Source of the DNA: Candidatus Omnitrophota bacterium
GTDB taxonomy: Bacteria > Omnitrophota > Gorgyraeia > Zapsychrales > Fredricksoniimonadaceae
Assembly (NCBI GenBank): GCA_903908245.1
Contig: CAIVRE010000023.1
Coordinates: 1-55,851, forward strand
Length of the DNA: 55,851 nucleotides
Reading direction: 5' to 3'
In this document: piece after piece, positions 1-34,214 of the stretch
Numbering within the stretch: position 1 is the stretch's first letter
Layout of the letters: the number at the start of each line of letters is the position of its first letter
Program-made: the position numbers and the translations under genes
Notes under the pieces: model-generated
What the model saw: only the letters and a program-made list of their open reading frames with translations
Database searches by the model: none
What the model was told of the DNA's origin: nothing

Positions 1-2370
1 CCATTTTACCCAAACCAGGATCAAATCTGCAAACTCAATTTTTCCCCAACATGTCCAATCGATGCTGACGCTCTACAGTCCGCGGTCTCCGCGCTGGCCG
101 CCATACCATTGGCGGCGGGAGAATCTTTTGACCCGACATCCACGTGGAGTGTCGTGGCTATTCTTTCTATCGGAGTTCCGGCGCTGGTTATGACTATGAG
201 ATATTGGACGATACAGCATTTCAAGTCGGTCCTACGGAAAACACAGGACCCGAAGGTTTTTTTCAAGGCGGCGGAGTCGTTGCGCTCTTTTGTGAAAGAA
301 GATGTTTGGCGTGATGAACTTCTGGCGCGTTATATGGATATGAACCCCGGGATCCGCGCGGCGGAGCGTGAGCTGTTTTCCAGGTTCGGTCAGATCGATC
401 CTTTATTTCGCTGGCTGGAGAGCAGGAATATCTTTGAGCAATTAAGACATCCCAATGCTCAGGTCCGGGATGGCGCAAAAGCCCTGATGGGGCAATTTCC
501 GTTCACTCCTCTGGAACGGGCCGAGGTCTGTCTTTTAGTGCTGGAAAGGGAATTGGGCCGGGATGTCCCTGCTTCTTTGAATATTGTCCAGGAGAATCTG
601 GCGGATCTTATTTCTTTCAGGAAGAAGGCCCGTTCCGCTTCAGTGGCCATGAATTCCCGGGAGAGGGCTTCGGCCGATTTTTTTGATCAGAAAATGATCT
701 ATATTCTTTCCAGGGTTTTGGGATGGGGGCCGGAGGCGTCTTTCCCTCTTGCCGTCAGCGGGCTTGATGAATTGGCCCCTGGGATGGAAAAGCATATCGA
801 TCTTTACCGTGATATCATTGAATCTTCGCCGAGATCGAAAGTCCGGATGGAGGTCTTTCAGCGCCTTCCGCTTCAAATGCAGAAAGAAATGGGAGACAGG
901 CTTTGGGACCGTTTCCGGGAGCCGCATATGTTCTTTGATGTATCGGTGCGGTTTTTCCTTGATACGGGCCTGGTCGGCCAGGGGCTTTTAACAGCCCGTG
1001 TTCTTGAGATCCTTAAGAAAAATCATTATATGCAGGATCCTCTTCGGGCTCCGCATATCCGGGCGCTTGAGACCCTTGGAGTGAAAGGTTTTTCGCAGGG
1101 CATGAGCCAGCGCCAGTTTGAGCAGGTCATTGATCAGGTCATGGCTTCTCAGCCGGACCGCGCCATGAGCCTTTCCGCTCTTTCTGTCCTGGCCGCGGCT
1201 CCCGTAGATCCGTCGGTGATCGATACGCTGGTGAACAGTCCTGTTGCCTGGGTTGTTGTGGGAGGGGTTGTTCTCGGCGCCTCTGTCGGCAGCGCTTTGC
1301 TGGTCCGGTACTGGAATATCCGGAAGCGTCAGCAACTGTTGTCCCGTGTTCATACCGGCAGCATGCCTTCTCGTATTGACGCGCTTATTGAATACAAAGG
1401 AAAAGTTCAGGAAGGTGCGGCCTATTATGAGTTTCTGGGGCTATTGAACGATCCATCGGCTGTTTTTATTTCCAGCGACCAGGAACGCCTGGAACAAGCC
1501 GGGTTTTCTTTCGGGAGATGGCTGGGTTATGACATGCCGGTCATGCTGATATCGACGGATAGCGAGGTCCGGGAACAGGCCAGGGGCCTTTTAAAGAACA
1601 AGGTTTCGCTGCTTGAGCAGGGGCTTGTACGGATCAGGGCGATCCATCGGGAGTATATGCGTCTTTCGAATACGAGGTATACGTATCGCACCAATGATAT
1701 TATCCTTGAGCTGGTTGATGACCTGTTAAGTGGCCGCAAGATCTTTCAGAATGCGGCCCTGGATCTGGAATTTGAAAAGGTCCTGCTGGAGCTGTTCCCT
1801 GTCGGGGATCTGCGTTCCATGCTCAAGATCAGGGACGCCCTGGTTGAACTGCGCCTGGGAAAGGACACATCCGATGCCAGCAGGACAGTGGTCCTGGGAA
1901 GGGTCAATGCGGAGCTTGGCGGCAAATTCCTGGAAAGGCTCAAACAGCCGTTGCCGGTCATGAACGTGAAGGATGTTGTTGTGTTCTTGTTGAATGTTAA
2001 CATTGGGAATCGGACCTTGATCCTTACGGATGTCATCAGCGTGCTGAGAAAACAGGGGCCTCAGATGGACGCATCTTTGAGAAAGAATTACAGCGATGCT
2101 TTGACGGCGTTGGGTTTGCCCGAGAAGGAGCAATGGCTGCAGGCGCCTTTGCTGGCGAAACCGGACGGGGACCGTCCGGATCCGTCCCAGGATATCAATG
2201 GTGGTATCGATGTCAGCGGCCTGAACGTTGAGCGTTCGGGGAAAGGTGTCGACGTTGTTTTTGATCCCGCCATGTTGACGGGATTTGCCAATGGCACGTT
2301 CAATGGGTTCACCCCCGTTATCGTTGGTTTTACTCCTGCCGGTAATATTCTTTCCGCGTTAGGGTTATGA
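1..2370 (+). CDS. C-terminal part of a long modular exported-type protein (5'-truncated by window edge)
   Basis: The reading frame is open from base 1 with no stop, so the TTG at 109 is probably not the real start and the gene most likely begins upstream. The 789 visible residues contain two hydrophobic segments (about bases 139-207 and 1240-1317). Each is followed by RYW and, exactly 70 codons after it, by RWL, with the two copies 1107 bases apart; this points to an internal duplication of about 369 residues. The rest is mostly helical with no enzyme motif I recognise. The last 60 residues carry the tail GGIDVSG...TPVIVGFTP, which also ends the three giant proteins at 16777-34214. I infer it is a fourth member whose N-terminal module lies outside the window. 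Function unknown. Confidence 0.75.
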   Translation, partial: PFYPNQDQICKLNFSPTCPIDADALQSAVSALAAIPLAAGESFDPTSTWSVVAILSIGVPALVMTMRYWTIQHFKSVLRKTQDPKVFFKAAESLRSFVKEDVWRDELLARYMDMNPGIRAAERELFSRFGQIDPLFRWLESRNIFEQLRHPNAQVRDGAKALMGQFPFTPLERAEVCLLVLERELGRDVPASLNIVQENLADLISFRKKARSASVAMNSRERASADFFDQKMIYILSRVLGWGPEASFPLAVSGLDELAPGMEKHIDLYRDIIESSPRSKVRMEVFQRLPLQMQKEMGDRLWDRFREPHMFFDVSVRFFLDTGLVGQGLLTARVLEILKKNHYMQDPLRAPHIRALETLGVKGFSQGMSQRQFEQVIDQVMASQPDRAMSLSALSVLAAAPVDPSVIDTLVNSPVAWVVVGGVVLGASVGSALLVRYWNIRKRQQLLSRVHTGSMPSRIDALIEYKGKVQEGAAYYEFLGLLNDPSAVFISSDQERLEQAGFSFGRWLGYDMPVMLISTDSEVREQARGLLKNKVSLLEQGLVRIRAIHREYMRLSNTRYTYRTNDIILELVDDLLSGRKIFQNAALDLEFEKVLLELFPVGDLRSMLKIRDALVELRLGKDTSDASRTVVLGRVNAELGGKFLERLKQPLPVMNVKDVVVFLLNVNIGNRTLILTDVISVLRKQGPQMDASLRKNYSDALTALGLPEKEQWLQAPLLAKPDGDRPDPSQDINGGIDVSGLNVERSGKGVDVVFDPAMLTGFANGTFNGFTPVIVGFTPAGNILSALGL

Positions 2371-16776: not shown

Positions 16777-19700
16777 ATGTTGCGAAAATTCTTTAAGAAG
16801 ACTGTTTGTTATATAACATTAGCGGCGTTCATTGTTATGAACGCGGGCCAGTCGTATGCCCAGTCTTTAACATTGCCTGCGCCGGGCATTCCGGTGGCAT
16901 TGTCGCAGGCCTTTCAGCCTGTCAATCTTAAAGGCATCAAGATCGATCCTGTCAATCCGCTGAGGTTCGATTTTATTATTGATAAAGGGACCTCCTTCAC
17001 CCCCGGGATGAAGGAGGTTGATTATCGGCTGATCAAATATTTTCTTGCCGCATTGACTGTTCCTGAAAAAGACCTTTGGGTCAACCTTTCGCCTTACGAA
17101 AAAGACCGTATCATCCCCGATGCATTTGGCCTGACGGAAATGGGCCGTGATCTTTTGGGGCAGGATTATATCCTTAAGCAGATCACATCCAGTTTGATGA
17201 ATCCGGATGACAATACCGGCAGGTCTTTTTGGAAGCGTGTTTACGAGGAGGCTTACAGGAAGTATGGCACAACGGATATTCCGGTCGATACTTTCAATAA
17301 AGTGTGGATCGTTCCGCAGGAGGCCAGGGTCTATGAACACAATGGCGCCGCGTTCGTCGTCAAAGCCAGGCTGAAGGTAATGTTAGAGACCGATTATCTT
17401 GCCATGCGTGTTGCGCGTGCAGGGGAGGGTTCCCAATCCTCCCAACAAGAAGCTCCCCGACAAGAAAGTTCCACACAGGACATATCCCGGCAGATCATTC
17501 GCGAGGTGATCCTTCCTATCCTTGAAACAGAGGTCAACGAAGGCCGGAATTTTTCCCGGTTACGGCAGATCTATAACGCCATGATCCTGTCGACATGGTT
17601 CAAGGTGAGTTTGAAGCAGAGCCTTGTCGGCCAGGTTTATGCGGACAGGAACAAGGTCAAGGGTATTGATATCGATGATAAAGATGCCAAGCTCAAGATC
17701 TATGATCAGTACCTTGCCGCGTTCCGAAAAGGGGTCGTTAATATTATTCGCGAGGAGAAAGATACAGTTTCTGACGAGGTTATTCCCAGAAAGTATTTTT
17801 CGGGAGGGTATTCGGCTACTGGTGCCGATGGCACCCGTTTGTCCGAGCTGGTCGGCAGGGATAAGGTGAACAGCCGGGACCGGTTATCCTCATCCGACCT
17901 TGCGTCGTTAACTGAAGGTGATTATTCGGAAGTCACGGTTGATCTCTCGGGTGATCATCGGGGCGCGGCTGTATCCAGGCCAGACATGGCCGCGCAATCG
18001 TCCGGTCATTTGACGGGCCAGGGCCGTGTGCATTTCAAGGATCCGGTGTATCTCAATGAGGCGAGTTCTTTTGCCAATGATAAAAGGTCTTTTCTGGACA
18101 GGCATTATATGCAATGGCAATGGCTTCAGCAGAAAGCCATGCCTTATCTTATCCGTCGGGCACTGGGACGCGCCCAAGAGGCCAAGGCAAGGCCGAGGCT
18201 GGTCGTGGCGGATCTCGGGGCCAGTACGGCCGAGGAAATGGCACGGATATTTTATGAGGTCACAATGGCCCTGGAAGTATCCGGGCAGGTTTTAAATGAT
18301 TGGGACCTGCAGGTCAATGGTTTTGAGATCGATCCGCAGATCGTTGCCGAGGGGAATAAACGGATCGGGGGCAGACAGCCTTTCTTTCGTGCACGCAGTA
18401 AAGAAGAACAGATCATGATCGATGGCCGATATTATGCCGACCGGATCATCGAGCGGTTGAACCAGTATGCCGAGAAATTTCAGGCCAGCGCAAGGCTTTT
18501 GAAGCAGGATATTCTGACGATCCCTTCCGGGGACCTGGCTGACGCGGACCTGGTCGTGTTGAATCACGTCCTGCGGATCTTTAAAGAAGAGGATCGCGGG
18601 GCGCTTGTAAAAAATTTGAGCCTGGACAGCTCCCATGCCATCCTGGCGGTCGGTGATTCATTGCTGGCGGGAGAAGCATGGAAATCCCGGGCGGGGGAGC
18701 ATATTTTTGTTGAGTCAGAAGGTTCTTCCGGAGGGACGCGTTATTCGTTCGGCCTGCCGGAAGAAGCGCTTGATGAAATCGACCTGTCACAGGCTTCCGG
18801 GTCGTCTGACCGTGCCGAGGCCGGCCCTTTGCCGCTCAAGCGGCAGTTGGCTGTTGAGACATATTTGAAATTGCGCAATGACCCTGACCCCGGAAAAGTG
18901 AGGATACGGGACCGGTATGTGATCGATCTTTTATCGGCGGCTTTCAAGTCGCCGAGACTTTTCGGACAATTGTCCGGTTATCTTTACGCCCGGTTGAATG
19001 TAACGACGAGTGATCAGGACAAGAAGGATCTTGTCCAGATATTGGCCTGGATGGGGGATCAGGGATTGCCGAAGTTCCTGGGGACGTTTGGAGAAGGGGC
19101 CTGGGATCTTTCGTTTGATGCCGCGCGGTATATTGACAATGGCCTGACCATTGAGGAAGAATTGAAGGCTGTTGCTCCGCTGGATATCAGGGTTGATCTG
19201 TCATGGATGAGCAAGGGTGTTTTTCAGGATGAGCGCCTTGTTTATGAAAGCAGCCGGGAAGACTTTCTTGACAATGATGTCAGGGTCAAGGTCATGATCC
19301 GCCGCGACGCGAAAGGGAGGCGGATCATTGAAAAAAGATTTACTGTCGACGGAGAGCGGGTCACGAAAGATACCCTGGAAATGGAACAGAAATGGATACA
19401 GGATTATCTGGCGTTGAAGTGGTTTAAAAAGCTTGGGTTCAGGGTCCCGGATGTGGTTTTAGTCCGTGAGGAAGGGGCCCTGCTTTTACGGGAAGTATTT
19501 ATTGAGGGCGCACAGACCATTGAAGAAGCATATCCTCAAAGAGACGGCGATATTCCGTCTTTTGTAAAGAAACAGCTTATTCCTTTTGGTTTGGCCGGGG
19601 TTGCGGCCTTAAGTTATGACATGCATCCTGGCAATTATTTGTTAAGTGGTCTGGACAAGGCGCGGGGGACGGGTGATGTTATCGGCATTGACATGGAGCA

Positions 19701-21027
19701 TTCTTTTGCCCCCTGGCCGGGGAAAGATGCGGAAGATGCTGTTTACGATATGCTTAAAGGGCCGTTCGGGCGAGGGGATGGAAATGTTGAGGAGATGCTG
19801 GGGTTGATGGGATTCAAGGACCTCAGGCACGGGTTCGGGTTGAGCCGGCAGGATCAGGACACATATTATCAATTACGGCGGCTGGCGACCCGGATCGCGC
19901 GTTTTTCTGATGAGGAAATGATCGAAATGGCCAAGGAGGCTTTTTCGCACTGGGGCGGTAAAAAGGATGGGCCGGTGGTCAGGAAATTGATCAACGACTG
20001 GCTTAAGGCCAAGGGAGCAGTGGGGGATTTCTTTATGGTTCCGCCGGTGCAGGCGGACCCCGCGATGAGCCAGTTCAAGGGGCTTATAAATCCGCAGACT
20101 CCTGATTTTTCGAGGATGATCAAACTTGGTAACGGCGGGCAAGGGGATGTTTATCAGGATCCGGATGATCCGTCAGTTTTTTATAAAGAAGCGCGAGCGG
20201 ATCCCCGTGAGATCAGGAGCACCAAGCGTTCGGCCGTGTATCTTCGTCAATTCAACCGGGTAGAGCGTGTGAGCGGTATTCCGGAACTTCTGGAGGTCGG
20301 TGGTGATGGGCGCAGCGGCTTCTGGATGAAATTGCGGGGCATTCCGCAAGGCGTGAGCCTGGACAAGGCTCCGTTGTTCTGGTTCGCCATGCCGATCCGT
20401 CAGAAGATCGATATTGTGACGCAGATCATCCGTATCCTTGAACGATTGCATGGGTTGGGCCTGGTGCATAATGATATTAAGCCGGCGAATATTGTTGTGA
20501 ACAAGGGCGGGGAGGTGATGCTGATCGATTATGGCGAAACAAACAGGATCCGCAAGAATCGCCGGGGTTTTTCACAGGGATATTCTTCCGAGGAGGACCA
20601 GGGCAGTGTCGTGTCCGATATTTACAGCCTGGGCAGGACCATGGCCTATATCTTGTCCGAGCATGATGCGTCAGATCCGGTCTTTGAGGCGCTCGATCCC
20701 GAGGTCGATCGATTGGTCAAAAGGATGACGATGTGGCAGGCGGCGCAGAGGTCGCCGCGCACGATGGAAGGTGTCCGGGAAGAATTAAAGAAGATCGCCG
20801 GCCGTGTGGCGGATCTTGAGCGATCAGGCGTTAGTGATGTGGGGGGTATCGATCTGACGGCAGGCCGGACCGGCCTTCAGATCCTGCGCGATGGCAACGG
20901 CGCACTGATCGCGATGTCGCCGCAGACCATTCAGAATATTGATATTGAAGGCTTCTATCCCGTGATCATTAATATCGTGCCGGTTATAAGCATGAAGGCT
21001 CTTTTGGGCCTTTCCATTTCTCCATAA
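16777..21027 (+). CDS. Giant modular exported protein A: N-module + CheR-like methyltransferase + two kinase-like domains + GGID tail
   Basis: A 1416-residue protein. Residues 1-28 look like a signal peptide (CYITLAAFIVMNAGQSYAQ). Residues 30-345 are the constant module (DLWVNLSPYEKDRI, VDTFNKVWIV, IPRKYFSGG). Residues about 430-665 resemble a CheR-like SAM methyltransferase (VVADLGASTAEEM, NGFEIDPQIV, DLVVLNHVLRIFK). Residues about 820-1085 look like an ABC1/aminoglycoside-kinase fold (SYDMHPGNYLLS, VIGIDMEH). Residues about 1110-1345 are a Hanks-type kinase: GNGGQGDVY, LVHNDIKPANIVV, LIDYGE (DYG for DFG) and SDIYSLG. The last 62 residues are the GGIDL...YPVIINIVP tail. GGGCGGGG precedes the ATG. 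Enzymes depending on SAM or ATP in an exported protein are puzzling; substrates and site of action are unknown. Confidence 0.8.
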   Translation: MLRKFFKKTVCYITLAAFIVMNAGQSYAQSLTLPAPGIPVALSQAFQPVNLKGIKIDPVNPLRFDFIIDKGTSFTPGMKEVDYRLIKYFLAALTVPEKDLWVNLSPYEKDRIIPDAFGLTEMGRDLLGQDYILKQITSSLMNPDDNTGRSFWKRVYEEAYRKYGTTDIPVDTFNKVWIVPQEARVYEHNGAAFVVKARLKVMLETDYLAMRVARAGEGSQSSQQEAPRQESSTQDISRQIIREVILPILETEVNEGRNFSRLRQIYNAMILSTWFKVSLKQSLVGQVYADRNKVKGIDIDDKDAKLKIYDQYLAAFRKGVVNIIREEKDTVSDEVIPRKYFSGGYSATGADGTRLSELVGRDKVNSRDRLSSSDLASLTEGDYSEVTVDLSGDHRGAAVSRPDMAAQSSGHLTGQGRVHFKDPVYLNEASSFANDKRSFLDRHYMQWQWLQQKAMPYLIRRALGRAQEAKARPRLVVADLGASTAEEMARIFYEVTMALEVSGQVLNDWDLQVNGFEIDPQIVAEGNKRIGGRQPFFRARSKEEQIMIDGRYYADRIIERLNQYAEKFQASARLLKQDILTIPSGDLADADLVVLNHVLRIFKEEDRGALVKNLSLDSSHAILAVGDSLLAGEAWKSRAGEHIFVESEGSSGGTRYSFGLPEEALDEIDLSQASGSSDRAEAGPLPLKRQLAVETYLKLRNDPDPGKVRIRDRYVIDLLSAAFKSPRLFGQLSGYLYARLNVTTSDQDKKDLVQILAWMGDQGLPKFLGTFGEGAWDLSFDAARYIDNGLTIEEELKAVAPLDIRVDLSWMSKGVFQDERLVYESSREDFLDNDVRVKVMIRRDAKGRRIIEKRFTVDGERVTKDTLEMEQKWIQDYLALKWFKKLGFRVPDVVLVREEGALLLREVFIEGAQTIEEAYPQRDGDIPSFVKKQLIPFGLAGVAALSYDMHPGNYLLSGLDKARGTGDVIGIDMEHSFAPWPGKDAEDAVYDMLKGPFGRGDGNVEEMLGLMGFKDLRHGFGLSRQDQDTYYQLRRLATRIARFSDEEMIEMAKEAFSHWGGKKDGPVVRKLINDWLKAKGAVGDFFMVPPVQADPAMSQFKGLINPQTPDFSRMIKLGNGGQGDVYQDPDDPSVFYKEARADPREIRSTKRSAVYLRQFNRVERVSGIPELLEVGGDGRSGFWMKLRGIPQGVSLDKAPLFWFAMPIRQKIDIVTQIIRILERLHGLGLVHNDIKPANIVVNKGGEVMLIDYGETNRIRKNRRGFSQGYSSEEDQGSVVSDIYSLGRTMAYILSEHDASDPVFEALDPEVDRLVKRMTMWQAAQRSPRTMEGVREELKKIAGRVADLERSGVSDVGGIDLTAGRTGLQILRDGNGALIAMSPQTIQNIDIEGFYPVIINIVPVISMKALLGLSISP
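17419..17443. repeat. GTAGGGG-type palindromic repeat copy 2 (degenerate, in frame inside giant protein A)
   Basis: GCAGGGGAGGG TTCCCAAT CCTCCC encodes AGEGSQSSQQ in the linker after YLAMRVAR. Its sequence and position match the copy inside giant protein B at 21792. Confidence 0.6.
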
Positions 21028-21113: not shown

Positions 21114-24100
21114 ATGTTCTCTGCAGCATTTAAAAGTTCAAGGCTGGTCCGATTTATTTCATTATGGCTTGTTTTTACCCTTTCCCTTCCGTTGCAACAG
21201 ATCCATGCGCAAACGGCCCTGGATTTGCCGGCGCCAGGCACAATGATCGGGATCAGTTCCGCCTATATTCCGGTCATGATGAAGGGTCTCAAGGTCCATC
21301 CTGAAAATCCACTTTTGTTTGATTTTATCCTTGATACAGGAAGATCCGGGCTTAAGACGGACGCAGGGGAATTCAAGGCCGAATCTGAAAAACTCATTAA
21401 ATATTTTCTTGCTTCCATTACGATCAAGGAAGACGACTTATGGGTTAATTTGTCGCCGTATGAACATGATCGCATGATCACGGAAGATCTGGGCAGGACC
21501 GAGCTTGGCCGCGATATGCTGGCCCAGGATTACATTCTTAAACAATTGACATCTTCTCTTATTTACCCTGAAAAGGATCTGGGTAAAGAGTTCTGGAAAA
21601 GGGTTTATGCCCAGGCGCAGGAGAAGTTCGGTTCAACGGATGTGCCGGTAGATACTTTTAATAAAGTCTGGATCGTTGCGGATAAGGCCAGGGTATTGGA
21701 GCGTAATAATACGGCGTATGTCGTCGGGGCCAATTTAAAAGTCATGCTGGAGGCCGATTATCTTGCCATGCGTGTCGCGCCAGTTGCGCATGTAGGGGAG
21801 GGTTCCAAACCCTCCCTCCAAGAACCATCCCCCCAACAAGACGTTCCCACACAGGATATATCCCGGCAGATCATCCGTGAAGTGATCATTCCGGAGATCG
21901 AGAAAGAAGTCAACCAGGGCCGGAATTTTGCCCCGTTACGCCAGATGTTTTATTCCATGATCCTGGCAACATGGTATCGACAGGCGTTGAAAGGGGCTTT
22001 CTTAAATCAGGTTTACAGTGATAAAGCAAAGACAGGTGGTGTTGAATCGGACGATCCGCAGGTCAAAGAAAAGATCTATGCTCAATATCTGGAAGCTTTT
22101 AAAAAAGGATCTTTTAATTACATTAAGGAAGAGGTCAATTCTTCAGGCGAAACTTTCCCAAGGAAATATTTTTCCGGAGGGTTGGCTCCTGATCTGGGTG
22201 TTCATCGGGTCATAAATATTGAAAAAGAACCTCAAGCGGACGATGACCTTTCGGCAGATGGCTCCATGGCCAATGTCCAAACGAATATGGCCGTAACGCA
22301 AGGCCGTAATGAGGCCATGGCGGAGCAGGTTGAGCGCGCGTTCAAGGCGAAGACGGCCGAAGGGTTCGTGGCGGATATCCATAATGATTATCTGGTTGAC
22401 GCTCCGGAGCGGCTGCAGAAGATCGCGACTTATATTACGGATACTGATCCGTATTTTACCAGGAGCATCATGACGCCGGAGCGGCTTACGTCGCAATGGA
22501 CAACGGAAGAGCTGATCAACAGTGCGGGGAAGAAATATACGGTGGATGTCTTGAACGTCCGCGCCGCGAACAGTTCCGCTCGGGGTGTGCCCAAGGGCGG
22601 TATTCGTGCTTTGTTGAATTATCTGGATAAGAGCCCGGAAAAAGAAGGGGCGCGCACGGCCAGTGATCTGATGCGGGATCCGGCGTTCAGAAAGGCTTTC
22701 GCCTGGCTTAATGAATTGGCGCCTACGGAAGGGCAGGTCAGGGCATTTATCCAGAAATGGATCGAGGAAGAGGCCAAGGCTTTATCATTGTGGATGTCGT
22801 TCAAGACCTCTGTTTTGGGGATCCCCCTGGGAGGAGGCAAAGGTGTTTTCTTTGTCGGGCAGATCAGCAAAAATTCCGACGGGACATTTTCAATAGCGGA
22901 TACAGAGCTTTGGCGGGACACGGATCAAGAGAATAATGCGCGGATCTCGCGGAGATATGTCCGGATCCTTTACGCGGCCGAGAGTGTCGGGCCGGATATC
23001 GATGTTCCGGCTCCGGACAAGCGGACGGATGGTGTGTCCATGGGATTTTTGACGGATGAATATATCCTTTTAAACCTGAAGGTGATCCAGAAGCGCGATC
23101 CGGCGCTTTACAACCGCCTAAAAGCGGCTTTGGACACGGCAACGGCAAATAATGGCGGTGTTTATCCGACAACGAGCACGGTCTTGGTGGAAGAGGCCAA
23201 CCGTTATTTGCATGAAACGAATGTGCCGGTGCCGGAATTGGCTGTTTTTACCGGAAAAAAGATCGAGCATGGCGGTGCTTTGGGAAGGACAGAGGCTACG
23301 GGTTTTGGCGTGGCGTCCACGATCCGCAATGTTCTGAAGGCTAAAGGCGTTGACATTCGCGGCAAGACACTTGGGCTTCAGGGGGCCGGAAATGTGGCCC
23401 TGTATGCGGCTCTTCAGGCGGTCCGGGATGGAATGATCGTCCAGATCCTGGCGGATGAAGGGACAACGCTTATCAAGAAAGATGGTTTCTCCGAGAAAGA
23501 GATCCTGGAGTTGATCCGTCGTTTTGAAAAGAACAAGGAAAAGATGTACCAGATCTGGAGGCAGGTTTTCTCTGCCGACAGTGTGGTCGCTGTTGAAGGC
23601 GATCGTGACGCCCAGGGTGCGGCGGTGTTGGAAGCGGATGTCGATGTATTAAGCCCTTGCGCGACCGAAGGGGTCATTACAGAGAAGAACGCCGGGCGGA
23701 TCAGGGCAAAGTTCATTGTTCCCGGTGCAAATGGTCCGATCACGTCGGCCGCATTGAAGATGCTTGAAGTGAATGGCATTATTGTTGTCCCCGACACGTT
23801 AACGAACGCGCGGGGTGTCCTGGTCTCTTATTTTGAACAGGTCCAGGCCTTGACGGGGCATATTTTTACAGCGGAAGAAGTTGCTTTGATCGCCGAGCGT
23901 GTTCATACGGCCGCATTTGCTGTGATGTGGGCTGAAAAGGAGAAAAGAGGGGTTTCTTTGACCGTGGCGGCGGATATTGTTTCGGCGCAGGGGATCATCC
24001 GGGCGCAATATCTGGGGTTGATCAAACGATTTAACGGTGATCTTAAAAAGATCAGTGACGAGCGCGGGTATGGAGAGTCTGAAAACAATCTTCGTCAGCA

Positions 24101-25760
24101 GATCGAAGCGTCGGGCCTGTCGGCTTATCTGAAGGCGATCGGGAACGATTCCCTTAAGATACGCGTTGTCAATCAAGGTGACGAGCCGGCAGTAAAAGCC
24201 GCATTGTCGTCCGCTGATGTTATTATCGCCGGTTCTTCTGTCCAGGCAAAGTCGTCATTCTTTATCAGTAAAAAAATGCTGGGAGAGATCGGGGAAGGGA
24301 AGCGGATCATTGATACGGTTGTCGATCAAACGAATGTTTTTGAAGACGGGAACACGGCACCCGGGGTTTGGCCAGGACAGCCTGCCTGGCTTGATGAACA
24401 CGGGAATTTGCGTTTTACTGTCGCGCATATGCCGGCAGTGTTCGGTTCCGTGGCCGCTGAACTTTTATCGCAGGCGACACAGGCGTTGACAAGAGAAATA
24501 GTCGCCGGAACTGCTCCGCGGAATGTTTCCGGGCTGCGTAGCGGCATCGTTGTTGCTAATGGCCGGTCTGTCAGTCGGGAGGCTCCGGTCACGGATGAAG
24601 AGTTCCTGAACCTGTTCACAACTTCGGATGGCCGGAAACGGACGATCGGTATTCCCAAAGAACGGTGGGCCGGTGAAACCCGTGTTGGCGCTACTCTGGA
24701 GGAGATCAAGGAATTCGTCGCTTCAGGTTATGAGGTCTTGGTCGAGCAGGGAGCCGGGGCAGCCAGCAGGATATCGGATATTGATTTTCAAAGGACCGGG
24801 GCAAAGATCGTTACGCGCAATGGCGTCTGGGGGGCGGATGTGATCCGTAAGGTTAAGTCTCCTTTAGCGGAAGAGTATCAATATTTTCGGCCGGGCATGA
24901 TCCTGGAATCATTTCTTTTCCTTGATCGTCCGGAGAACCAGGAGTTGAAACAGGAATTAACGGGCAAGGGAGTGACGGCTGTCGCTTATGAAGAGGTCAG
25001 GAAGTCGGGGCATCGCACGTTGCTTGACCGGGTGTTCTTTATGGAGGATGTCGGGGCCCCGGAAGATGAAGGGCGTTATATTCTCGATCCAATGTCACGG
25101 GTTGGCGGTTATGTCGCTGTTCTTTGGGCGGCGTTGTATGGCCGGGCGGATGTGAATGGCCGCGGGACAAAGGGATCATACAAAGACCTGGTCGGCGGGG
25201 ATGGGCTTCTTGAGACGTCTGTTGTTCAGGAGCGGCAGTTGCACCTGGACAGATTCCTGGCGAATATCGGGACTCATTTGCAGGAATTTGTCACCCATGG
25301 TTACGGGTTGCCTCCGGGATTGCTTAGGGATACAGGGATGGAGAGCCGGCTGGGCAAGGTCGTTGTCCTGGGCGGGACTTTGACAGCCCGTGAAGCCGCG
25401 TATTTAAGTTTGCTGTTCGGTGCGGAGAATGTTGAAGTGCTTGTTGCCGATGAGAATGAAAAGGACCTTCTGGAGCGACAATTCCGAAAAGCCGGATTAT
25501 TGAGGGATGTTGATCCGGCGGGGGCGGCAGATGATGCTGTAGCGGGAAAACCGGATATTCAGGGTGGTATCGACATGAACGCCAAAAATATGGAAATGGA
25601 TGTGTCCAGAGAAGGCAGAGGGGTCGAGGCCGGGCTTGACCCTGTTATTCTTGAGCAATTCAAGGGCGGTGATTTTTCCGGTGTGGTGCCGGTCATTATT
25701 CGTATCACGCCGGTCGCGAGCCCGATAGCAATTCTGGGAATGGAAGCAAGCCCGCCGTAA
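21114..25760 (+). CDS. Giant modular exported protein B: N-module + glutamate dehydrogenase + permuted alanine dehydrogenase + GGID tail
   Basis: A 1548-residue protein starting 87 bases after protein A, with AAGGGGGG before its ATG. A signal-peptide-like start (FISLWLVFTLSLPLQQIHAQ) leads into the constant module (to about residue 350). Residues about 470-965 are a complete Glu/Leu/Phe/Val dehydrogenase: PKGGIR, SFKTSV, PLGGGKGV and DVPAPD keep the three Lys and the Asp used in catalysis, with GALGRTEATG, LQGAGNVAL and GANGPITS. Residues about 1010-1130 match the C-terminal half of alanine dehydrogenase (ADVIIAGSS, RIIDTVVDQT, TVAHMPAVF). Residues about 1177-1445 match its N-terminal half (IGIPKERWAGETRVG, RKVKSPL, PMSRVGGY, KVVVLGG). 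That order is circularly permuted, and the usual His in LFTFLHL is Phe. The tail is GGIDMNA...VPVIIRITP. Confidence 0.82.
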   Translation: MFSAAFKSSRLVRFISLWLVFTLSLPLQQIHAQTALDLPAPGTMIGISSAYIPVMMKGLKVHPENPLLFDFILDTGRSGLKTDAGEFKAESEKLIKYFLASITIKEDDLWVNLSPYEHDRMITEDLGRTELGRDMLAQDYILKQLTSSLIYPEKDLGKEFWKRVYAQAQEKFGSTDVPVDTFNKVWIVADKARVLERNNTAYVVGANLKVMLEADYLAMRVAPVAHVGEGSKPSLQEPSPQQDVPTQDISRQIIREVIIPEIEKEVNQGRNFAPLRQMFYSMILATWYRQALKGAFLNQVYSDKAKTGGVESDDPQVKEKIYAQYLEAFKKGSFNYIKEEVNSSGETFPRKYFSGGLAPDLGVHRVINIEKEPQADDDLSADGSMANVQTNMAVTQGRNEAMAEQVERAFKAKTAEGFVADIHNDYLVDAPERLQKIATYITDTDPYFTRSIMTPERLTSQWTTEELINSAGKKYTVDVLNVRAANSSARGVPKGGIRALLNYLDKSPEKEGARTASDLMRDPAFRKAFAWLNELAPTEGQVRAFIQKWIEEEAKALSLWMSFKTSVLGIPLGGGKGVFFVGQISKNSDGTFSIADTELWRDTDQENNARISRRYVRILYAAESVGPDIDVPAPDKRTDGVSMGFLTDEYILLNLKVIQKRDPALYNRLKAALDTATANNGGVYPTTSTVLVEEANRYLHETNVPVPELAVFTGKKIEHGGALGRTEATGFGVASTIRNVLKAKGVDIRGKTLGLQGAGNVALYAALQAVRDGMIVQILADEGTTLIKKDGFSEKEILELIRRFEKNKEKMYQIWRQVFSADSVVAVEGDRDAQGAAVLEADVDVLSPCATEGVITEKNAGRIRAKFIVPGANGPITSAALKMLEVNGIIVVPDTLTNARGVLVSYFEQVQALTGHIFTAEEVALIAERVHTAAFAVMWAEKEKRGVSLTVAADIVSAQGIIRAQYLGLIKRFNGDLKKISDERGYGESENNLRQQIEASGLSAYLKAIGNDSLKIRVVNQGDEPAVKAALSSADVIIAGSSVQAKSSFFISKKMLGEIGEGKRIIDTVVDQTNVFEDGNTAPGVWPGQPAWLDEHGNLRFTVAHMPAVFGSVAAELLSQATQALTREIVAGTAPRNVSGLRSGIVVANGRSVSREAPVTDEEFLNLFTTSDGRKRTIGIPKERWAGETRVGATLEEIKEFVASGYEVLVEQGAGAASRISDIDFQRTGAKIVTRNGVWGADVIRKVKSPLAEEYQYFRPGMILESFLFLDRPENQELKQELTGKGVTAVAYEEVRKSGHRTLLDRVFFMEDVGAPEDEGRYILDPMSRVGGYVAVLWAALYGRADVNGRGTKGSYKDLVGGDGLLETSVVQERQLHLDRFLANIGTHLQEFVTHGYGLPPGLLRDTGMESRLGKVVVLGGTLTAREAAYLSLLFGAENVEVLVADENEKDLLERQFRKAGLLRDVDPAGAADDAVAGKPDIQGGIDMNAKNMEMDVSREGRGVEAGLDPVILEQFKGGDFSGVVPVIIRITPVASPIAILGMEASPP
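21792..21820. repeat. GTAGGGG palindromic repeat copy 3 (in frame inside giant protein B)
   Basis: GTAGGGGAGGGTTCC AAACCCTCCCTCC encodes VGEGSKPSLQ in the linker after YLAMRVAPVAH. The arms GGGAGGGTT and AACCCTCCC pair. Confidence 0.75.
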
Positions 25761-30791: not shown

Positions 30792-33700
30792 ATGATTTAT
30801 CTGGATTTCTTCAAGAAAAGCATTACATGGCTTGTTCTTGTGGCTTTTTTAGTCACCGGGGTGCCAGGGGCTTATGCCCAGGAAGCCCTTATACTTCCTG
30901 CAGCAGGAAGCCGTTTGGCATTGAGCCCCGCGTTTGTTCCGCCGTTACTTAAAGGGATCAAAGTTTATCGTAACGACCCTTTCCGTCTTGATTTCATTCT
31001 TGATCAAGGCGATGCCGTTGACCCGGGCCCGCAGTTGAAAAATGAATCGGATCGTTTGATCAAATATTTTCTTGCCTCGCTCACTGTTCCTGAAAAAGAC
31101 TTGTGGGTCAACCTGTCGCCTTATGAAAAAGACCGTATTGTCCCCGATGCCTTTGGCCAGACGGAAATGGGGCGTGATCTTCTGGCCCAGGATTATATTC
31201 TCAAACAGATGACCGCGTCCGTTATTTATCCGGAAGGAGATGTTGGCAAGGTTTTTTGGGCAAAAGTCTATGCGGAAGCCCAGAAACGTTATGGCACGAC
31301 AGATATGCCGGTCGATACGTTCAACAAGGTTTGGATCGTCCCTGAAACAGCGACGGTTTATGAGAATAGAGATGCGGCATTCGTTGTTGAAAGCAGACTT
31401 AAGGTCATGCTGGAATCCGATTATCTCGCGCAGGAACAAAATGCTGGGATCCCAATGCCGGCCGAAGTCCCTCATGGGAATGTCCAGTCGCACAACGATA
31501 CGAAAGAGATCCTCCGCGAGATCGTTATCCCCATTCTTGAGAAAGAGATCAATGAAGGGAAGAATTTTGCTCAATTGCGTCAGGTTTACAATTCCCTTAT
31601 TCTTGCCGCCTGGTATAAACGAAAGATAAAGAAAAGTTTGATGGGAGAGGCCTATGCGGATAAGAACAAGACCGCAGGCGTTGAGATCAGCGACAAGAAA
31701 GAAAAAGACAGGATCTGGGCGCAGTATGTTGAGGCGTTCAAGAAGGGCGTTTTTGATCTGGTCAAAGAAGAAAAAGACGAGCTGTCCGGCGAAACCGTTC
31801 CGCGCAAATATTTCTCCGGCGGTGTCGGCGCGTATCGCATTGGAAGTGTTCTGCGGGAGACTTCGGACCCATCCATGCTGCCGTCCGATAGCCGAGGGAG
31901 GATGGTGATCGCGGCCAGTTTTAAGGTGGCGGATGCTTCGGCCTCTTCGGATCTGTCCGGGGATGACCGTGTTATGCGGGCCTCTGCCGCAGGATACAAG
32001 AAGTACCTGGAGGCGAAGGTCCGTTTGAGATGGGAGGACCTTCCCCGGGAGGCCAGGGAAATCATTGAACAGGCGGATATGGAAAGCCTTGTTGTTATGG
32101 CACAGAATGCCGCGGGTGAGGCGGATTATTTGTTTGAGTACGGATTTGTCGCTTTAAGAAAGATCCTTACCCTGGAAGAGATCAGAGCATTCTGGCCGGA
32201 TCTGGTCAGGATGACTGCGGCTTCAAGAGAGCAATCAGGCGAGCTTTTTCATCGAGGGCTTCCGGCATTAAAACAGGCATTGGGGAACGATCTGTTCAAG
32301 GCGTATTGGCCTGGGCTGACGAATGCGGTCCAGATTGCAGGCTGGTATTCTTCGGTTTTTCTGCAGTTCGCTTTCTCGTCGGTACGAAATATTGTTACAG
32401 CAGAGAACATTAATGAGGTGGGAGAGAGCCTCTCGGGCATTTCCCGATTGGAAGGCGGCGATCCCGGAGCATTTTATCAGTATGCGCTTCCTGCTATTGC
32501 CAGAAGGATCAAGTCCGTCAGTGATTTAAAGTTTTGGATCGATCGGCTTAAGCAGGCGGTCCGATCGATGGACATTGAACAGGAAGGGCTGTTCGTCGGG
32601 TATTTGGATAATGATCGTTTTGTCGATGATCTTCAGGCCATGAAGGATGAGACCGCGTCCAATCCTTTCGGGATCGCCCGCCTTTTGCTGGAATATGCGG
32701 CAGGCCGGCGGGAGGTTTTGCATATATTCCTTGAGCCATGGGCGTTTAGCCATGCCGGCGAGTTAACGCCGGCGCTTTCGGAACAGATCGCGTTATCTTT
32801 TCAGATGACACAGGAATTGAAGTATTTCTTTTATTATATCTCTGTTAACAGCCATACTCGCCAGGATACCCGCCGGAAAGTAAAAGATATTTTAAAAGCC
32901 CTTAGATCGCGCAATGTTTTTTCTTTGCATGGGCCTGTAGAAAGGTTGCTGGCCAAAGGAGAAAAAAGGGTCCTTATCGTTCAGAACATCGATGATGGCG
33001 TCGGGGATGAACAGGTCCGTGTGCTGCCGATCTTAAACGGGCTTTTGGCGTTGAATCCGGAGCTTAACGTGAAAATTGTTACCGGGAAGCCCGATCTATA
33101 CAATCACCCGAGGGTGACGGTGCTTTCGATAGATGAGGTCTTTTCAGCTGTTTTGAAGCATGCCATTGATATTCAGACGGCATCGTATGATGCGGTGATC
33201 AATTTTTATGATGAGAATCTGCCCTCGTATAGCCGGTCGCTGGAGATGGCTGTCAGGGCCCGCGATAAAGGAAAGATTTTTATCACGACAGGACGGGGGC
33301 GGGAAGATACTTTTATTTTTGATAAAGTTTTTGTTGAAGGCTCGGAATACGCTTTATCGTTAGGGTTGAACCAGGCAAGGGTTGACAGTGTGTATGAGCC
33401 GGGGTTTCGTCTTTTGGCGGAATTGGGGCTGCCTGTTTCAGCCGGCGGTGTTGTCTCCCGGGAAGGCTCGGCCATGACGGCTCTTCTTTATCCTGTCGCC
33501 GAAACGCGGTGGCGCGAGGCCATGACAGCGTTGAACAATGAGAAACATACAAGCCCGGTTATTCTTTTTAGCCCTTATGGTGGTCAATTGGAAGCGAAAG
33601 GATTTACTCGTAGTGAGGCGGATCGCGAAGAATTGCGTGATATTGTTACAGAGATCGTGAAGAAAGGGAACAAGGTTGTTGTACTCGCTAATGGGACTTC

Positions 33701-34214
33701 CTGGGGTACCAGGGAAACTGCCGAAGCGTTACAGGCAAGCCTTCCGGATGATGTCCGTTCGGAAGTCTTTGTCGTTGATCCCGGAAAAGATTTTCGGCTT
33801 CCGACTTATTTTTCCGCGTATGCGGATCTTAATTTGATGGTCGAAGGCAAGATGGCTCACACGGCAGGGAATATCGGGAAACCATTCCGCGTATTTTTAA
33901 AACCTGGCGCCAGCCAGCGGAGATGGATCCCGTATGGCCAGGCAGAGCATGGCGTTGTCGATGATATCAGCCAGGTCCTGGGCCGTCTTCAGGCACAATG
34001 GACCGCCAGGTCCGATCGGGCGACGGTCATGAAGGGTGGTATTGACCTTGATCCTGATAGAATGAATTTGAATATGAAAGATCCGGTCGAGCCGCTGGAA
34101 TTTAATTTTACCCGGGTCCAGTTCGAAGCGCTCAATGCCGCCTCCGGCGTTAGCCCTGTAATCATAAATATCATCCCGCTGGAAGACCTTCGTACATTCC
34201 TTTCTGTCCCGTAG
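30792..34214 (+). CDS. Giant modular exported protein C: N-module + helical repeats + GT9-like glycosyltransferase + GGID tail
   Basis: A 1140-residue protein with a signal-peptide-like start (SITWLVLVAFLVTGVPGAYAQ). The constant module covers residues about 35-345 (DLWVNLSPYEKDRIV, VDTFNKVWIVPE, VPRKYFSGG). Residues about 390-700 are alpha-helical with roughly 40-residue repeats (GFVALRKILTLEEIRAFWPDL; RGLPALKQALGNDLFKAYWPG). Residues about 715-1070 resemble family GT9 (heptosyltransferase) proteins: VLIVQNIDDGVGDEQV, VILFSPYGG, GNKVVVLANG, KMAHTAGNIGKPFRVFL. The usual D of the DTG(P)xH motif is not kept. The last 65 residues form the GGIDLDPDRM...SPVIINIIP tail. GGAAAAGGG precedes the ATG. 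The stop TAG lies inside a palindromic repeat. Role unknown. Confidence 0.8.
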   Translation: MIYLDFFKKSITWLVLVAFLVTGVPGAYAQEALILPAAGSRLALSPAFVPPLLKGIKVYRNDPFRLDFILDQGDAVDPGPQLKNESDRLIKYFLASLTVPEKDLWVNLSPYEKDRIVPDAFGQTEMGRDLLAQDYILKQMTASVIYPEGDVGKVFWAKVYAEAQKRYGTTDMPVDTFNKVWIVPETATVYENRDAAFVVESRLKVMLESDYLAQEQNAGIPMPAEVPHGNVQSHNDTKEILREIVIPILEKEINEGKNFAQLRQVYNSLILAAWYKRKIKKSLMGEAYADKNKTAGVEISDKKEKDRIWAQYVEAFKKGVFDLVKEEKDELSGETVPRKYFSGGVGAYRIGSVLRETSDPSMLPSDSRGRMVIAASFKVADASASSDLSGDDRVMRASAAGYKKYLEAKVRLRWEDLPREAREIIEQADMESLVVMAQNAAGEADYLFEYGFVALRKILTLEEIRAFWPDLVRMTAASREQSGELFHRGLPALKQALGNDLFKAYWPGLTNAVQIAGWYSSVFLQFAFSSVRNIVTAENINEVGESLSGISRLEGGDPGAFYQYALPAIARRIKSVSDLKFWIDRLKQAVRSMDIEQEGLFVGYLDNDRFVDDLQAMKDETASNPFGIARLLLEYAAGRREVLHIFLEPWAFSHAGELTPALSEQIALSFQMTQELKYFFYYISVNSHTRQDTRRKVKDILKALRSRNVFSLHGPVERLLAKGEKRVLIVQNIDDGVGDEQVRVLPILNGLLALNPELNVKIVTGKPDLYNHPRVTVLSIDEVFSAVLKHAIDIQTASYDAVINFYDENLPSYSRSLEMAVRARDKGKIFITTGRGREDTFIFDKVFVEGSEYALSLGLNQARVDSVYEPGFRLLAELGLPVSAGGVVSREGSAMTALLYPVAETRWREAMTALNNEKHTSPVILFSPYGGQLEAKGFTRSEADREELRDIVTEIVKKGNKVVVLANGTSWGTRETAEALQASLPDDVRSEVFVVDPGKDFRLPTYFSAYADLNLMVEGKMAHTAGNIGKPFRVFLKPGASQRRWIPYGQAEHGVVDDISQVLGRLQAQWTARSDRATVMKGGIDLDPDRMNLNMKDPVEPLEFNFTRVQFEALNAASGVSPVIINIIPLEDLRTFLSVP

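Follow-up and report, generated by a model that had tools for sequence, protein, structure and literature searches.

L-alanine dehydrogenase (AlaDH; TIGR00518; Protein Data Bank [PDB]: 2vhx, 1pjb, 8hyh) is a well-studied two-domain enzyme in which the chain runs from the N-terminal domain through the Rossmann domain and returns to the catalytic domain. The same AlaDH/PNT fold family includes domain I of the NAD(P) transhydrogenase alpha subunit (PntA). Hexameric glutamate dehydrogenase (GDH; PF02812/PF00208; PDB: 1euz) is built from two ELFV domains. Giant open reading frames (ORFs) are known in Omnitrophota, where they are poorly annotated, have an export-type N terminus and have been discussed as adhesins, coats or predation proteins (PMC10066038). 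Here we describe an ORF from an uncultured Candidatus Omnitrophota bacterium. The window analyzed is the whole 55,851-nucleotide stretch of contig CAIVRE010000023.1 (assembly GCA_903908245.1), and the ORF lies at 21114-25760 on the plus strand (1548 aa). A preliminary description, made from the sequence alone, had proposed an exported GDH with intact catalytic residues fused to a circularly permuted AlaDH. The parts of the chain are as follows:

21114..25760 (+), whole ORF, 1548 aa: putative signal peptide, leader, GDH, permuted AlaDH, tail
21114..21209 (+), putative Sec-type signal peptide, aa 1-32 (basic N terminus, hydrophobic core, end at HA|Q), read by eye
21219..22229 (+), leader domain of ∼330 aa, shared by 25 ORFs of the genome
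22464..24053 (+), GDH (hexameric-type ELFV family), with catalytic Lys494, Lys564, Lys576, Asp630 and Ser905 kept
24159..24578 (+), second half of AlaDH placed first (AlaDH model positions 216-353), keeping catalytic Asp1071
24579..24641 (+), 21-residue joint linking the original C terminus of AlaDH to its original N terminus
24642..25490 (+), first half of AlaDH placed last (model positions 3-214): N-terminal domain with Arg1190, Lys1246 and Phe1269 (was His), then the start of the Rossmann fold with a degenerate glycine loop at 1420-1425 and Val1444 (was Asp/Glu)
25563..25742 (+), C-terminal tail (GGIDM...PVIIRITPV), shared by 21 other leader-bearing chains of the genome

The observation made in the preliminary description is confirmed. 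The motifs it had listed for GDH (PKGGIR, SFKTS, GGGKG and DVPAPD) and for AlaDH (ADVIIAG, VVDQ and VAHMP, followed by IGIPKE, RKVKSPL, PMSRV and KVVVLGG) are all present. Pfam places ELFV_dehydrog_N at residues 533-650 and ELFV_dehydrog at 720-965, in the normal order for GDH, and then AlaDh_PNT_C at 1020-1152 (profile 79-211) ahead of AlaDh_PNT_N at 1179-1300; both AlaDH domains score above curated cut-offs. Relative to 1euz, the GDH is preceded by the signal-peptide-like segment and leader and has inserts within and between its domains.

Several lines of evidence show that the AlaDH domain is a true circular permutation. The PDB AlaDH 8hyh aligns in three pieces, with its residues 224-354 at the front of the query fragment, 3-123 in the middle and 139-197 at the end. 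A model built from 18 normally ordered Omnitrophota AlaDHs matches residues 1016-1155 as positions 216-353 (35.6 bits) and residues 1177-1459 as positions 3-214 (108.9 bits), so that the two pieces are complementary to within one position. Profile–profile comparison assigns the front half to template columns 242-377 (98.5%, E 1.7e-15) and the back half to columns 1-237 (99.9%, E 9.6e-38). A chance match of the front half was rejected by these comparisons and by shuffling; the best of 4000 shuffled front halves scored 9.9 bits, against 42-46 bits for the real ones. The preliminary description had named a different fold for the 1010-1130 segment as the result that would overturn it; this was tested and was not borne out. 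The cut falls between the second helix and the third strand of the Rossmann domain. PntA scores lower than AlaDH in the sequence searches and is not permuted. The chain also carries an insert before the Rossmann start, a shorter version of which occurs in the related fused AlaDHs and in those of another class of the phylum.

An assembly or frame artefact was ruled out by an orthologue (L095) in G257, a genome of the same family but another genus. This is an intact 1548-aa ORF that aligns over nearly the whole passenger at 53% identity, and over the whole protein from leader to tail; it has the same domain order, with AlaDH pieces matching as positions 207-351 and 3-215. Amino acid identity is 0.65 in the leader, 0.59 in GDH, 0.45 and 0.52 in the AlaDH halves and 0.30 in the linker after the leader. 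Fourfold-degenerate sites agree at only 0.27 to 0.35 in leader, GDH and AlaDH (0.27 to 0.31 in GDH and the AlaDH halves), against 0.23 expected by composition; synonymous sites are therefore near saturation and both AlaDH halves are under constraint. The two genes also differ in GC (0.52 and 0.39), from which we infer that a recent transfer between them is unlikely. Only these two genomes were found to carry the permuted form, which limits every comparison to the pair. About 58 other AlaDH-family ORFs were collected, and all run in the normal order or hold only one half; no further permuted copy was seen in the class, order and phylum samples beyond G257, and a first scan of genome contigs with the passenger found nothing. 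One long, low-identity match suggested a tandem AlaDH intermediate in locus L041, but direct search showed no extra half there, nor in the other exported AlaDH giants.

Structure prediction is consistent with a single compact domain. With only the two orthologues, AlphaFold gave a poor model (pLDDT 44) that was not used. With 24 front-half and 12 back-half fragments of normal AlaDHs entered as separate rows (alignment A7), the model reached a pLDDT of 83.4 and a pTM of 0.85. No row other than the orthologue spans both halves, so the packing of the halves was not dictated by normally ordered sequences; however, the row set was chosen because MAFFT then placed the halves correctly (alignments A4 and A5 placed half-domain rows wrongly, and A6 only partly rightly), and the model is thus supportive rather than independent. 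Foldseek, which is order-dependent, returned AlaDH and transhydrogenase domain I as the top PDB folds, over ∼285 columns per hit at TM-scores of about 0.35 (query) and 0.45 (target). A search of a viral fold library gave one weak hit to a giant-virus protein and otherwise nothing.

We next compared the active sites. In the GDH, Lys494, Lys564, Lys576, Asp630 and Ser905 match the catalytic set of ordinary GDHs of the order (Lys89/113/125, Asp165 and Ser380 in Clostridium symbiosum numbering), as they do in the orthologue. Some other exported GDHs have lost part of this set, with Arg for the first Lys in loci L070 and L099 and Ile for Asp in L099; the latter (L099:2-9241, +) is a chain that also carries phosphoglucomutase and histidine phosphatase. 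These losses, and the discussion of giant Omnitrophota proteins as adhesins or coats, leave room for a reading in which neither domain is an active enzyme in vivo and the chain is a surface or structural protein built from retired enzyme folds, kept for shape or binding, for example in contact with other cells. We consider this unlikely, as the GDH and its orthologue keep every catalytic residue tested and are 59% identical with synonymous sites near saturation.

The AlaDH site presents a different picture. Nearly all AlaDH-type sequences in normal order, exported fused ones included, keep Arg, Lys, His, Asp, Asn, the three glycines and the ribose-binding acid; L120, inside a 10,197-aa ORF, is one that does not, and two more distant side groups of the AlaDH/PNT family have patterns of their own. 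The permuted pair keep Arg, Lys and Asp (Arg15, Lys75 and Asp270 in Mycobacterium tuberculosis numbering), but both have Phe for the catalytic His96, a degenerate GxGxxG loop (GGTLTA and GDSLVA, with T/S and A for two glycines) and Val for the acid at the end of the second Rossmann strand. The preliminary description had noted that Arg, Lys and Asp are kept and that the His of LHL is Phe, and His is indeed the only loss among the residues it listed; it had not examined the glycine loop or the ribose acid. Its interpretation is therefore only partly supported: the export-type N terminus, the intact GDH residues and the permutation stand, but treating the second domain as a second working dehydrogenase is not supported. 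The permuted domain is probably not an NAD-dependent alanine dehydrogenase, although residue loss does not prove that NAD binding is lost.

On the tree, the permuted pair form a 100/100 clade on a long branch (1.78 changes per column) near exported fused AlaDHs and AlaDHs of another class of the phylum; the fork is only moderately supported (92/88), and the exact placement is accordingly tentative. The preliminary description had called two amino acid dehydrogenases in one exported chain, one of them permuted, highly unusual. This applies to the permutation; exported fusions of metabolic enzymes recur in the phylum. Leader-bearing GDH chains occur in six genomes (G000, G257, G101, G194, G296 and G293), and a second G194 chain, cut at the contig edge, has GDH and tail. 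Export-type chains without that leader but with normal-order AlaDH occur in genomes G007 (aminotransferase, transketolase, AlaDH) and G195 (AlaDH, hexokinase, aldolase), while G222 and G213 hold similar AlaDHs in incomplete ORFs. Among the ORFs of this kind are a 2478-aa chain joining aminotransferase, transketolase and AlaDH (L039:9276-16709, +) and a 3194-aa chain in which a normal-order AlaDH with a complete active site is followed by hexokinase and class II aldolase domains (L044:2669-12250, −). In genome G087, an export-type 1404-aa ORF (L045:8486-12697, −) joins a normally ordered AlaDH with a full active site to a GDH-like region that matches large-GDH models weakly, in the other order, so that an AlaDH plus GDH pairing probably arose twice. 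This second pairing, the retained Arg, Lys and Asp, and a report that PLP synthesis is missing or incomplete across Omnitrophota (PMC10407285) would fit a chain in which both domains are active and run a closed NAD/ammonia cycle, coupling alanine oxidation to 2-oxoglutarate amination (net alanine + 2-oxoglutarate to pyruvate + glutamate) as a transamination without a PLP enzyme. Given the substitutions shared by both orthologues and the long branch, we regard this as unlikely.

The N terminus, MFSAAFKSSRLVRFISLWLVFTLSLPLQQIHAQ, looks like a Sec signal peptide, and paralogues end alike (e.g., SYA|Q and VYA|Q); this was read by eye, and export is inferred from sequence alone. The leader has no Pfam, NCBIfam or PDB relative and was not found in phages; it is present in all 4 genomes of the order sampled and in 5 others of the class, and in none outside the class. 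Named genomes that carry it are nearly all Candidatus Omnitrophota. Of the 24 other leader-bearing chains of this genome, most carry nucleotide-cofactor enzymes or unknown passengers, and those passengers with Pfam hits are largely enzymes that need ATP, UTP, SAM, sugar nucleotides or NAD. Members of this family (leader plus tail GGIDL...GFxPVIIxIxP) crowd the contig, with three full chains and one seen by its tail only (window positions 1-2370, 16777-21027, 21114-25760 and 30792-34214). The sister chain at 16777-21027 has a protein-kinase-like domain (aa 1205-1297) and a possible methyltransferase region, and would be another ATP- or SAM-dependent passenger. Elsewhere, a 5164-aa leader-and-tail chain of the same genome has no Pfam domain above its cut-off (L055:2451-17942, −), and a leader-bearing chain of 3232 aa in full contains HlyD- and outer-membrane-efflux-like regions within one polypeptide (L052:1-7155, −). 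Compared with the giant ORFs described previously, this family (roughly 0.5 to 5 thousand aa) has a conserved leader and tail and, in part, recognizable metabolic-enzyme passengers; it is not described in the papers found.

The window chain holds the only GDH found in its 92%-complete assembly, and the one other AlaDH/PNT-family protein there has a different active-site pattern. As NAD(P) and 2-oxoglutarate are cytoplasmic, the N terminus could instead be an anchor, with the protein not exported past the membrane and the enzyme serving the cell's own nitrogen metabolism as the only GDH of the genome. This appears very unlikely; the signal-peptidase-like end is shared across paralogues, the charges before the hydrophobic stretch predict the chain outside, and many sister genomes have no match to an ordinary GDH either.

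The reading we favor, with moderate confidence, is a single exported multidomain protein in which leader and tail form a lineage-specific frame used for about 25 chains of this genome. The working enzyme would be the GDH (glutamate + NAD(P)+ to 2-oxoglutarate + ammonia + NAD(P)H, or the reverse), and the following domain an AlaDH-derived, non-redox accessory domain, probably permuted by tandem duplication and loss of the outer halves. In this view it has lost NAD binding and the catalytic His but is kept under selection as a folded domain, most likely to bind a keto acid or amino acid through the remaining Arg/Lys/Asp pocket, or to help assemble or oligomerize the chain. The domain order, the permutation, its conservation and the residues kept and lost are established by our analysis, whereas export by Sec, GDH activity, the loss of NAD binding and the inactivity of the AlaDH domain are inferred from sequence and family knowledge; the role of the permuted domain and the place of action are speculative. 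A dehydrogenase outside the cytoplasm would need a source of NAD(P)(H), and the cofactor needs of the passengers fit action in a compartment with cofactors, such as prey or host cytoplasm, although nothing here shows delivery. A bolder and unlikely, but not excluded, possibility is that Omnitrophota use a dedicated leader-and-tail frame to export whole central-metabolism enzymes, here a GDH tied to a permuted AlaDH pseudoenzyme that senses keto or amino acids, so that they work in such a compartment outside their own cytoplasm, for instance inside prey or host cells.

Searches for permuted AlaDH, GDH-AlaDH fusions or exported metabolic enzymes of this phylum found nothing relevant in the literature, where absence is weak evidence because only open-access papers were covered. 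In that literature there is no natural circular permutation of AlaDH, and the cut here runs through the Rossmann fold; the protein offers a natural test of how that fold tolerates permutation and the probable loss of its cofactor. The wider point is larger, and raises the question of why a cell would export GDH, hexokinase, aldolase, transketolase or AlaDH: a conserved, undescribed leader and tail would carry cofactor-dependent metabolic enzymes out of the cytoplasm of an uncultured, possibly host-dependent phylum.
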